Positions 1,237 through 46,677 of a stretch of DNA of 64,000 bases are shown here, piece by piece; within the stretch, counting starts at the first letter, position 1; every line of letters begins with the position of its first letter. The translations under genes and the position numbers were made by a program. The notes under the pieces were generated by a model. The model searched no databases. It was not told the origin of the DNA and worked only from the letters and a program-made list of their open reading frames with translations. Source of the DNA: an uncultured Bacteroidia bacterium (lineage in GTDB: Bacteria > Bacteroidota > Bacteroidia > Bacteroidales > UBA932); the NCBI GenBank assembly GCA_902785825.1, contig CACZZZ010000006.1:1-64000 (forward strand), in the 5' to 3' direction.

Positions 1237-4236
1237 ATGACTATACACAACAATACACACAAAGTAATGAAAAGGATTATGACTGCCGTGGCGGTGATGC
1301 TGCTATGCCTCACCGGCACAACCGTATTCGCCCAGGGCGGATACCAGGTCAAGGGAGTCGTGGTCGATGCCTTGGGACCGGTCATCGGAGCCACTGTCAT
1401 GGAGCAGGGCACGACGAACGGAACCTCCACAGGTCTCGACGGTGACTTCCTCCTGAATGTCAGTGGTCCGGACGCTACAGTTGTCATCAGCTGCATCGGC
1501 TACGCTACCCAGACATTCAAGGCTTCAGAGGTCCCTGCCAAGGTCACCCTCGCTGAGGATGGAGAATTCCTCGACGAGGTCGTGGTCATCGGTTACGGTA
1601 CCGTGAAAAAGAGTGACATGACCGGATCGGTCTCGACCGTGAAGGCTGATGAGATCAACAAGGGTGTCATCACGACCCCGGCCGACCTCCTTAGAGGTAA
1701 GAGCGCGGGTGTCGTCGTGACTCAGGGCAGCGGTATGCCTGGTGCGGGTGCCACTATCCGTATCCGTGGTGGCTCCTCCATCAACGCTTCCAACGACCCT
1801 CTGATCGTCATCGACGGCCTGCCCGTCTCCAATGACCGGATCGAGGGTATGTCCGACCCTCTGTCTTCCATCAACCCCGAGGACATTGAGAGCTTCTCTG
1901 TCCTGAAGGACGCGTCCGCGACCGCCATCTACGGATCCAGGGCCTCCAACGGAGTTATCGTGATTACCACGAAGAAGGGTTCAAAGACCGCTTCCAAACT
2001 GCCCAATGTGGCCGTGGATTTCACGACTTCCATCAACACGATCGCCAAGTACAACGATCTTCTTGACGCTGACGGGATCCGTTCCCTCATCAGGGATTTC
2101 TATGGTCCTAACTCGGCCGCCGAGGCCGCTCTCGGCTCAGCCAACACTGACTGGCAGAAAGAAATCTACCACAACGCCCAGACCTACGACGGCAACATCA
2201 GCCTGAACGGCAAGATCGGAACCTTCCTTCCTTACCGCGTCTCCGGTGGCTATACGAGCCAAAACGGTACCCTCAAGGGATCCAAGATGGATCGTGGGAC
2301 TCTGTCTCTCAACCTTTCTCCTACTTTCTTCGAGAACCACCTCACTGTCAACTTGAACGGAAAGGGAACATACGCCAAGAACGTCTATGCCAACCAGGAG
2401 GCTATCGGTGCGGCCAATCACTATGACCCCACCAAGCCGGTTTATGACAGCAACGGTCTTAACGGATACACCACCTGGTACGATGCGGCCGGTAACGTCA
2501 ACACTATGGCGACGATGAACCCTGTGGGCCTGCTGGACGCCTTGATTGACAAGGCAGACTCCAAGCGCTTCATCGGCAACGCCCAGTTCGACTACAAGAT
2601 CCATGGCTTCGAGGATTTGAGGCTCAACCTTAACCTTGGTATTGACTGGGCCTCCTCAGATGGAATAACTGAGAGGGCCAAGGGCTCTGAGAGGTCTATC
2701 CATGACACTTCTGAGGCCGGCGGTGGTCATCATGTGGATTATGACTACACCCGTCGCAACACCACCCTTGAGTTCTACGCCGACTACAACAAGACCTTCG
2801 CGAAGAAGCACAATGTGGATTTGATGGCCGGTTATTCCTGGCAGCATTTCTGGAGCAACAAACATAGCTACAAGTACAGGCTGGCTGACAATCTCGAGAT
2901 GGCCAATACCGAAGGCAAGGGTGAGCTCTACCTGATTTCCTTCTTCGGCCGCGCAAATTACGGTTTCGCCGACAGGTATCTGTTGACCGCCACTCTCCGA
3001 GCTGACGGAACCTCACGTTTCCAGAACCACAAATGGGGTATATTCCCGTCCGTGGCCTTCGCTTGGAATATCAAAAACGAGCCTTTCATGAAGGGCGTTG
3101 AGAAACTTTCGACCGCTAAGCTTCGTCTTAGCTGGGGTGAGACTGGCCAGCAGGAGGTTGGAGGCTACTACGACACCTTCGCCCAGTTCCTCTCCATCAA
3201 CACACCCGGCTCCTACTATTTCGTGAACGGCAGTAACTATTCCGCTCCTATCGTCGCCCTCGGTTACAGCGCCGATCTCAGGTGGGAGACCACCACGACT
3301 TACAACGCCGGTATCGATCTTGGTTTCTGGAATGACCGTCTGCGCCTGAGCGCCGATGTGTATCAGAGGGACACCCGCGACATCCTCAACTGGATACCTG
3401 TGCCTGGCCTCTCCAACCTGACGAACTATCTCAATACCAACATCGGAACTATGACCAACAAGGGATTCGAGATTGATCTGAACGGTATCCTCATCGAGAC
3501 CAAGGACATGAGCTGGACAGCCGGAGTGAACATGGCTTACAATAATAACAAGGTCACCAAACTGACGGCTTCCGACGAGAATGCCGCTGGTATAGAGAAA
3601 GGTGGAATAGCCGGAGGTACCGGTAACAACGTCCAGTTGATCCAGGTTGGTTACCCGATGCTCTCTTACTATCTCTACCAGCAGGTTTATGACTCCGAGG
3701 GCAACCCTATCAACGGAGTATATGTGGACCGCAACAACGACGGCCAGATCACCGCTGATGACAAGTATCTGACCCACAAGCCGGATGCTGACTACACCTT
3801 CGGTTTCAACACCAATTTCACTTGGAAGAACTGGACCGCGGCCCTCTCTGGCCACGCCTCCATCGGTAACTGGGTGTACAACAACGTCGCTTCTGACACG
3901 GAGATGCTGGCCGACCTCTGGACCAACCAGTTTGTCAGCAACAGGGTCTCCTCGGCTCCCAAGTCGATGTTTACCCAGGCCCAGTATCTGTCTGACTACT
4001 ATCTCCATGACGCTTCCTTCCTGAAGCTTGACAACTTCACACTCGGATACACCTTCCCGAAACTGTTCAAGATCAATGCTGACAGGAACGCGTCCCTCAA
4101 TATCTTTGGAACCGTGCAGAACATCTGCACCTTCACGAAGTACTCCGGCATCGACCCTGAGGTTTACGGCGGAATTGACGGAACCGTCTATCCCCGTCCG
4201 AGAACCTATGTCTGCGGTTTGAAACTCAACTTCTAA
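1237..4236 (+). CDS. susC: SusC-like TonB-dependent outer-membrane receptor
   Basis: Outer-membrane beta-barrel that imports starch oligosaccharides with SusD as its lid, powered by TonB. The 999-residue length is normal for the family. Order of parts: signal peptide ending near VFAQ, a carboxypeptidase-regulatory-like domain (about residues 35-110), the SusC box around DEVVVIGYGTVKKSDMTGSV, plug domain, then the barrel ending in an aromatic residue (KLNF). A second start at 1267 (MKRIMTAVAV) gives a more typical signal peptide and may be the real one. It lies between the truncated MFS gene and susD in a co-directional cluster with two GH13 enzymes, which makes starch or a related alpha-glucan the likely substrate. 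Specificity is inferred from these neighbours. Confidence 0.95.
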   Translation: MTIHNNTHKVMKRIMTAVAVMLLCLTGTTVFAQGGYQVKGVVVDALGPVIGATVMEQGTTNGTSTGLDGDFLLNVSGPDATVVISCIGYATQTFKASEVPAKVTLAEDGEFLDEVVVIGYGTVKKSDMTGSVSTVKADEINKGVITTPADLLRGKSAGVVVTQGSGMPGAGATIRIRGGSSINASNDPLIVIDGLPVSNDRIEGMSDPLSSINPEDIESFSVLKDASATAIYGSRASNGVIVITTKKGSKTASKLPNVAVDFTTSINTIAKYNDLLDADGIRSLIRDFYGPNSAAEAALGSANTDWQKEIYHNAQTYDGNISLNGKIGTFLPYRVSGGYTSQNGTLKGSKMDRGTLSLNLSPTFFENHLTVNLNGKGTYAKNVYANQEAIGAANHYDPTKPVYDSNGLNGYTTWYDAAGNVNTMATMNPVGLLDALIDKADSKRFIGNAQFDYKIHGFEDLRLNLNLGIDWASSDGITERAKGSERSIHDTSEAGGGHHVDYDYTRRNTTLEFYADYNKTFAKKHNVDLMAGYSWQHFWSNKHSYKYRLADNLEMANTEGKGELYLISFFGRANYGFADRYLLTATLRADGTSRFQNHKWGIFPSVAFAWNIKNEPFMKGVEKLSTAKLRLSWGETGQQEVGGYYDTFAQFLSINTPGSYYFVNGSNYSAPIVALGYSADLRWETTTTYNAGIDLGFWNDRLRLSADVYQRDTRDILNWIPVPGLSNLTNYLNTNIGTMTNKGFEIDLNGILIETKDMSWTAGVNMAYNNNKVTKLTASDENAAGIEKGGIAGGTGNNVQLIQVGYPMLSYYLYQQVYDSEGNPINGVYVDRNNDGQITADDKYLTHKPDADYTFGFNTNFTWKNWTAALSGHASIGNWVYNNVASDTEMLADLWTNQFVSNRVSSAPKSMFTQAQYLSDYYLHDASFLKLDNFTLGYTFPKLFKINADRNASLNIFGTVQNICTFTKYSGIDPEVYGGIDGTVYPRPRTYVCGLKLNF

Positions 4237-18181: not shown

Positions 18182-18320
18182 GGGAAGAGGGGATGCGGCT
18201 TGGAGCCGCACCCGTGGAGGATCCAGCATCGCCCATTTTGAGGCGGCATTACGGGTTGCCGGGCGTTGTACGGTCTCGTGATCAGCAATTTTGCTGATTC
18301 AAAATCATCCCCCTTTTCCC
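18182..18320 (+). ncRNA. Structured leader before the reverse transcriptase (candidate RNA)
   Basis: GGGAAGAGGGGATG (18182-18195) can pair with CATCCCCCTTTTCCC (18306-18320), closing a ~110-nt interior. Inside are a perfect 7-bp hairpin TGCGGCT-TGG-AGCCGCA (18194-18210), a CGGCA/TGCCG hairpin around 18244-18262, and an ATCAGCAA/TTGCTGAT hairpin (18281-18298). The outer stem shares its 18194-18195 bases with the first hairpin, so these are partly alternative. A flanked RNA next to an RT recalls retron and DRT ncRNAs, but no known class was matched. Confidence 0.45.
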
Positions 18321-18329
18321 TTTTATCGG

Positions 18330-19532
18330 ATGGAAAGCATTATGAGACAGATCATGAGTCAGGGAGTCTGGGACGACTTCCTGGCTCATCGTCTGCGTAA
18401 GGGACGCTTCACCTGGCATTCTTTCGAGGAAGCGGACGACTTCGTGGACTCGGAGTCGTATCTGCCGGTAGTCTCACGCCTTTCTGTCGGGGAGGAACTT
18501 GGAATTCCATTCAAGACCGTCATCAACAAGATGGGGACAGGGAAAAAGAGGGTTGTCTATCATTTCGGCGATCCCGAGATGACAGTCCTCAAACTCATCT
18601 CCCACCTCCTTTACCGCTACGACGGTCTTTTCGCCTCAAATTGCTATGCTTTCCGTAGGGGGAAGAGAGCCTCTGACGCCATATTCAAGTTGAAAAGGGA
18701 AATGAAGGACAGGAAGTTGTGGGCATATAAGGTGGACATCCACGACTATTTCAACTCAATATCCATCCCCGTCCTTCTTCCCATCCTTTCCGGAATATTC
18801 AAGGATGACCCCCAACTGTATTCTTTTTTTGAGAGACTTCTCTCGGATGACAGGGTTATGTCGGGTGGCCAGGTGATCCGGGAGCGGAGAGGAGTGATGG
18901 CCGGAACCCCTACGGCACCATTCCTCGCTAATGTCTATCTGATGGAGGTGGACCATCATTTCGAGAAGGAAGGAGTCGTCTATGCCAGATATTCGGACGA
19001 CATACTGATACTCTCTGATTCTGAAGAAGAACTGGCGGCAAGAAAGGACGAGCTGTCGGACTTTTTCAAGAAATATTATCTCACGGTCAACCCGGCGAAA
19101 GAACATGTTTACGCCCCAGGGGAAGCTATTGATTTTCTGGGCTTTAGCCTTGACGGATCCAGAATTGATGTCTCGAAGGCGACCTTGATGAAGATGAAGG
19201 GCAAGATCCGCCGCAAGGCCCGTTCCCTCCACAGGTGGGTTTCCAAGACGGGCAAAGATCCGGTCCTGGCTATGAAGGCTCTGATCAATACTTTCAACCG
19301 GAAGTTCTTTGAGGAGGGAGACCCCGACACGCTCTCATGGTCGAGATGGTTTTTCCCGGTGATCAACTCGGCGGAAGGCCTCAGAGAAATAGACCATTAT
19401 CTTCAGGACAACATTCGTTTCCTATCGACCGGGAAGCATAACAAAGCCAACTACCGGGCCAGTTACGAGGATCTCAAGTCTCTCGGCTACCGTAGCCTTG
19501 TCCATGAATATCACAAGTTTCGTCAAAAATAG
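18330..19532 (+). CDS. Stand-alone reverse transcriptase
   Basis: A 400-residue RNA-directed DNA polymerase without maturase or endonuclease domains. The fingers/palm carry D136 (WAYKVDIHDYF), GTPTAP at 192-197, the catalytic YSDD box at 221-224 (YARYSDDILIL), VNPAKEHV at 253-260 and FLGFSL at 269-274. A helical C-terminal region (about 285-400) includes GKIRRKARSLHRW, FNRKFF, RWFFPVIN and a conserved-looking GYRSLVHEYHKF end. It lacks the VTG element of retron RTs, so it is not a standard retron; it looks like a gut Firmicutes/Bacteroidota 'unknown group' RT. The start at 18330 was picked because upstream in-frame codons run through the leader hairpin; 18342 is possible. Defence, or RNA-templated synthesis from the leader, is conjecture. 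Confidence 0.88.
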   Translation: MESIMRQIMSQGVWDDFLAHRLRKGRFTWHSFEEADDFVDSESYLPVVSRLSVGEELGIPFKTVINKMGTGKKRVVYHFGDPEMTVLKLISHLLYRYDGLFASNCYAFRRGKRASDAIFKLKREMKDRKLWAYKVDIHDYFNSISIPVLLPILSGIFKDDPQLYSFFERLLSDDRVMSGGQVIRERRGVMAGTPTAPFLANVYLMEVDHHFEKEGVVYARYSDDILILSDSEEELAARKDELSDFFKKYYLTVNPAKEHVYAPGEAIDFLGFSLDGSRIDVSKATLMKMKGKIRRKARSLHRWVSKTGKDPVLAMKALINTFNRKFFEEGDPDTLSWSRWFFPVINSAEGLREIDHYLQDNIRFLSTGKHNKANYRASYEDLKSLGYRSLVHEYHKFRQK

Positions 19533-46285: not shown

Positions 46286-46598
46286 TATCTTTGCGCTTGC
46301 ATCAAGAGCGCTCCTATGAGGAGCCGCCAACCGAGCAGCCAGAAGCCACGGTGGCAAAGCGATGCGGATTGTTCAACATCAAAAAAAGTATGGTACCATG
46401 GAAAAGCATCGCTTGTACAGGGCAATAGTTGCCTTGGGCTTTCGGGCAAGGTCTAATTATAGGGTGGGGACCATGCCCGGGGAGGTGGGCTTTGAGGGCA
46501 TTCTGAGGCCGAATATGTGGGCAAGGTCGAGGGCATCAAGTTAGACCTTGCCCGGCCGGTATGGAAAACAAAAGCACCGGAAAATCCGGTGCTTTTTT
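46286..46598 (+). ncRNA. Candidate independent structured non-coding RNA
   Basis: Promoter box TATCTTTG (46286-46293). Helix GCATC (46299-46303)/GATGC (46361-46365) closes a region with CTCCT-ATG-AGGAG (46311-46323) and GCCAC-GGTGGC (46346-46355). AAGCGATGC (46357-46365) can instead pair with GCATCGCTT (46406-46414). Next are a GGCAA-TAG-TTGCC hairpin (46421-46433) and a perfect 13-bp inverted repeat (46444-46456/46541-46553), then the terminator at 46571-46597. The first 70 nt carry ATCAAGAG, CCAACC and GGTGGCAAA in SAM-I-like order, without the full consensus. No convincing protein gene lies inside; short frames only. Confidence 0.5.
46571..46597. terminator. Bidirectional hairpin terminator
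   Basis: AAAGCACCGG and CCGGTGCTTT form a perfect stem with T runs on both strands. It ends tRNA-Val transcription (minus) and the candidate RNA (plus). Confidence 0.85.
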
Positions 46599-46602
46599 CG
46601 AG

Positions 46603-46677
46603 TGAGGACTGGCAGATTTGAACTGCCGACCTCTTGCCTGTCAAGCAAGCGCTCTAAACCAACTGAGCTAAGCCCTC
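46603..46677 (-). tRNA. tRNA-Val (anticodon GAC)
   Basis: Minus strand: acceptor GAGGGCT/AGTCCTC (one G-T), D arm GCTCAGTTGGTTTAGAGC, anticodon stem CTTGC/GCAAG with loop TTGACAG (GAC), T arm TCGGCAGTTCAAATCTGCC-like, discriminator A. CCA not encoded. Confidence 0.93.

Follow-up and report, generated by a model that had tools for sequence, protein, structure and literature searches.

SAM-I/IV riboswitches (RF01725) are a variant class in which P2 has no internal loop (Weinberg et al. 2010, PMC2864571). Trans-acting SAM riboswitches are known in Listeria (SreA), and intergenic repeats of the REP/BIME or MITE kind are recognised by dispersed copies with conserved terminal inverted repeats. The stretch examined here, positions 46286-46598 of the 64 000-nucleotide window of uncultured Bacteroidia DNA that was analysed, can be compared with each of these. 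It resembles the SAM-I/IV riboswitch in its full-length covariance match, in P1-P3, in the conserved core blocks and in the P2 without an internal loop, but in the window and in most members of its genus the riboswitch is followed by orphan genes, not by methionine or SAM genes, and the gene behind it in the window is broken. As with SreA, the SAM-type aptamer of the window has no intact gene directly downstream; unlike SreA, there is no sign in the window of a terminator of its own or of a conserved discrete RNA. The short palindrome at 46443-46554, which ends in inverted repeats and is present in 11 paired copies in the genome, has the dispersed copies expected of REP/BIME- or MITE-like repeats. 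The best explanation, which we hold with considerable confidence, is a SAM-I/IV leader whose orphan gene is broken, then an unrelated repeat and the terminator of a tRNA-Val gene. The features are:

46286..46293, plus strand: Bacteroidota-type -7 box TATCTTTG of the putative riboswitch promoter (from sequence; same spacing in genus cassettes)
46294..46396, plus strand: SAM-I/IV riboswitch aptamer, RF01725 (Rfam score over the whole model; covariation in P1 and P3)
46299-46303/46361-46365, plus strand: P1, the GCATC/GATGC pair
46308-46325, plus strand: P2, a short hairpin in the Rfam alignment, without the internal loop of SAM-I and SAM-IV
46326-46356, plus strand: P3 in the Rfam alignment, followed by a short 3' hairpin
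46398..46433, plus strand: orphan-gene remnant of family B, about 12 codons, MEKHRLYRAIVA (similarity to cassette L048; same truncation in L126)
46443..46554, no strand assigned: dispersed palindromic repeat with 13-bp terminal inverted repeats GGGCAAGGTCTAA (copies in this and other genomes)
46570..46598, minus strand: tRNA-Val terminator hairpin, flanked on either side by T tracts (minus-strand terminator call; similar hairpin in L089-L092)
46602..46677, minus strand: tRNA-Val, anticodon gac (ARAGORN and Rfam)

The Rfam covariance search had been set beforehand as the refuting test for a new kind of RNA, and it gave a significant match to a known class. RF01725 matched 46294-46396 on the plus strand with 58.0 bits (gathering score 41.1), over model positions 1-99 of 99, and besides the neighbouring tRNA it was the sole Rfam family above its gathering score in the 46286-46598 stretch. 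A new RNA class is ruled out by this match, which bears out the 'SAM-I-like' order of short blocks noticed in the sequence-only reading. The elements named in that reading (-7 box, GCATC/GATGC, a 9-bp pair, a 13-bp inverted repeat and the terminator hairpin) were all found where it had placed them, and the GCATC/GATGC pairing proved to be P1 of the aptamer. Its 'reduced middle' is accounted for by the simpler P2, a trait of the SAM-I/IV variant. Its term 'degenerate' suits the following gene, which is broken, but not the aptamer, which is complete over the whole model. The compensatory changes sought in relatives were present in both P1 and P3. Matched variants of P1 were observed across aptamers of the genus and the order; among 54 such aptamers the first outer pair of P3 was canonical in 53, with five pair types, and the second in all 54, as C-G or G-C. 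The fold z-score of the aptamer stretch alone was -1.5 (dispersed repeat, -6.8). Taken on its sequence, 46286-46397 reads as a promoter and a complete SAM-I/IV riboswitch leader, with secure class membership, and the aptamer would be expected to bind SAM. It is present as a single copy in its genome, which also holds a SAM-II riboswitch; by eye, the gene behind the latter reads like metK. Elsewhere in the window an RT-5 RNA (RF03026, 75.8 bits) lies at 18206-18311 on the plus strand, just before a 413-aa ORF at 18291-19532 on the same strand that, by eye, may be a reverse transcriptase.

Transcription would start from the -7 box promoter at 46286-46293. A -7 box (TAnnTT[TC]G) was found 15-18 nt upstream of ATCAAGAG in 27 of 30 genus cassettes, where about 0.015 per stretch would be expected, and DNA similarity between the window and other cassettes mostly begins near this box. 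S-adenosylmethionine would then stabilise P1 and change the expression of the gene at ATG 46398. The likeliest route would be a cis effect on the start of translation, because about 30 nt free of any terminator separate the end of the aptamer from the ATG; the fixed distance from aptamer to ATG and the terminator-free interval both suggest this kind of control. The level and the direction of control by SAM are what we infer, and a folding test of start-codon accessibility gave no clear change and no direction.

The stretch is not gene-free as had been proposed. It holds an ORF of 48 aa from ATG 46398, whose frame continues into the repeat as far as 46544 and whose first 12 codons are the remnant of a gene. 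The leader and gene start share 88% DNA identity over 42 nt with the family-B cassette L048, the gene start being MEKHRLYRAIVA in the window and MEKNHMYRAVVV in L048, and the similarity ends after about 12 codons. By this comparison the gene at ATG 46398 is a former member of an orphan family whose proteins have about 88 aa, of which the first 12 or so codons are left, and the aptamer of the window would now have nothing intact to regulate. The orthologous locus in a second species (L126, genome G185) is 92% identical to the window along 2.2 kb of left flank and 91% identical along 871 bp that include a nitroreductase gene and the riboswitch; it shows the same riboswitch and the same truncation of the gene. 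The shared truncation suggests that the break probably predates the split of the two species. Some remaining function is possible because neither species has lost the promoter, the aptamer or the remnant, and because conservation of the aptamer (94%) is no lower than that of its flanks (91%). Further to the right in L126, beyond a tRNA-Val fragment near 3239, the tRNA-Val gene breaks off after ...GTCAAGCAA and unrelated sequence follows, as an inserted element or a rearrangement of the locus would leave it.

The inverted repeat at 46444-46456/46541-46553 is a perfect 13 bp and was matched in none of 1000 dinucleotide shuffles. Eleven paired copies with a spacing of 97-98 bp are present in the genome and further copies in G017, G023 and G027; alignment of copies showed no target-site duplications. 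This repeat is also the main source of the strong fold of 46286-46598 as a whole (z -5.1). L126 is without about 105 nt of it, though keeping a few bases that resemble its end. Genome G212 is 95% identical to the window from near 46408 to the right, through remnant, repeat, terminator and tRNA-Val to a deaminase gene, so that the repeat is present at the corresponding locus, but in place of the promoter and aptamer it has other sequence; a riboswitch cassette is present elsewhere in G212. On this distribution the repeat is judged to be unrelated to the riboswitch RNA. The hairpin at 46570-46598 is placed at the 3' end of the tRNA-Val gene and is assigned to it by the minus-strand terminator call and by L089-L092, where tRNA-Val and a similar hairpin occupy the same position and the riboswitch is absent. 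With T tracts on both sides, it could also end a riboswitch transcript. No second, directly repeated copy of the end of tRNA-Val, such as marks an integration site, was found in the window. Downstream tRNA genes on the opposite strand, facing the cassette, were seen at 6 of 30 genus loci (L029, L031, L039, L040, L048 and L057), L048 and L057 being one locus.

Given that L126 keeps an intact promoter and aptamer without an intact gene, a SAM-responsive stand-alone RNA acting in trans has to be considered. Such an RNA would start near 46298 and stop at the hairpin, giving about 300 nt in the window and about 190 nt in the species of L126. SreA provides a precedent and the hairpin does have a plus-strand T tract. 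However, the supposed unit varies, L126 being without the repeat and G212 without the promoter and aptamer while retaining the rest; the hairpin is associated with tRNA-Val; and elsewhere in the genus the cassettes precede genes. A discrete RNA conserved from its promoter to a terminator of its own, as for SreA, was thus not found, on the evidence of L126, G212 and the tRNA-Val hairpin. By these comparisons 46286-46598 is not a conserved RNA unit, and we consider the stand-alone RNA unlikely. The independent promoter-to-terminator RNA of the sequence-only reading is not supported, its repeat being dispersed and missing in L126, its terminator belonging with tRNA-Val and its alternative helix being absent from the other cassettes scanned.

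Two further explanations concern the alternative helix and the short frame. In one, the 9-bp pairing of AAGCGATGC (46357-46365) with GCATCGCTT (46406-46414) would be a genuine switch, preventing P1 from forming in the absence of SAM. This helix includes the entire 3' strand of P1, it is present in the predicted minimum-energy structure and L126 can form it with one G-U pair. Against this, its 46406-46414 strand lies inside the codons of the gene remnant, and 3.9% of shuffles of the 158-nt part with the repeat excluded contain some 9-bp pair by chance. L126 is nearly identical in sequence, so its pairing is as expected, and it is too similar to the window to give independent support. Not even 7 bp of the helix could be found in any of the 29 other genus cassettes scanned, a scan that did not include L126, and the mutually exclusive helices proposed from the sequence are quite improbable as a switch. 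In the other explanation, the short frame from 46398, 48 aa in the window and 35 aa in L126, would still be translated as a SAM-controlled small protein. Both species do keep the start codon, the leader and the first codons, but their products are unrelated beyond codon 12 and the frame of the window crosses the dispersed repeat, which makes a small protein of this kind very improbable indeed.

Of 400 genomes of this rumen Bacteroidales genus, 32 have RF01725; across the order it was detected in 34 of 393, 26 of these 34 being above the cut-off. Named records with the exact 28-base core are from uncultured Bacteroidales, many of them from ruminant guts. In the genus the module of -7 box and aptamer lies 92-98 nt upstream of an ATG, nearly always that of a small orphan gene, and most of these genes have no Pfam match. 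Family A (about 165-250 aa) has conserved cysteines and gave a good fold model (pLDDT 82.5) with no PDB match at E 0.001 or better, and family B (about 88 aa) gave a poor one (pLDDT 59.6). Other families also occur behind the riboswitch; a Pfam match (PF05013, E 6.7e-24) marks one of them as N-formylglutamate amidohydrolase-like. Of the strong matches to families A and B in the genus, the majority have a SAM-I/IV riboswitch in front of them, and the remainder are mainly short, weak or disrupted. An association of this riboswitch with orphan genes was not reported in the open-licence papers found.

Four cassettes, L048, L053, L054 and L057, have a common upstream flank (mostly above 90% identity where aligned, more rearranged in L057) and the same riboswitch at about position 1500 of each, and L048 and L057 also have a common downstream tRNA region. 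The gene that follows is of family B in L048 and of the unrelated family A in L053, L054 and L057, with the break between aptamer and ATG. Tandem SAM-I/IV riboswitches, each before its own small gene, are present in L128 (4784 and 5851, reverse strand), and a tandem pair is also present in G666 contig 9 (9811-11532). Recombination between riboswitch copies would explain both the gene exchange and the tandem pairs. The 3' half of an aptamer stands before a family-A gene start in L190, upstream of 1500, and a 5' half without a gene stands near 550 in L202; these half riboswitches are relics of decaying cassettes. A phage origin was rejected: the stretch has no match to any phage record, the aptamer core and relatives of family B are absent from viral contigs, and the gene families scanned give at most one weak PHROG match. 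Tentatively, and with somewhat more doubt than belief, we suggest that a fixed -7 box and SAM-I/IV aptamer form the constant 5' part of exchangeable single-gene cassettes in which unrelated orphan families are swapped, perhaps by recombination between riboswitch copies, that SAM gates accessory genes outside methionine metabolism, and that the cassette in the window is a dead one.

The candidate 'new RNA' is removed by these results, each piece being assigned to a known kind, and the locus illustrates how a leader, a repeat and the terminator of a neighbour can together mimic an independent RNA gene. Of greater interest is the occurrence of SAM-I/IV riboswitches ahead of small orphan proteins at many unrelated sites, at one of which the gene has been exchanged. 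If SAM does control such accessory genes, then their function would become testable through the ligand.
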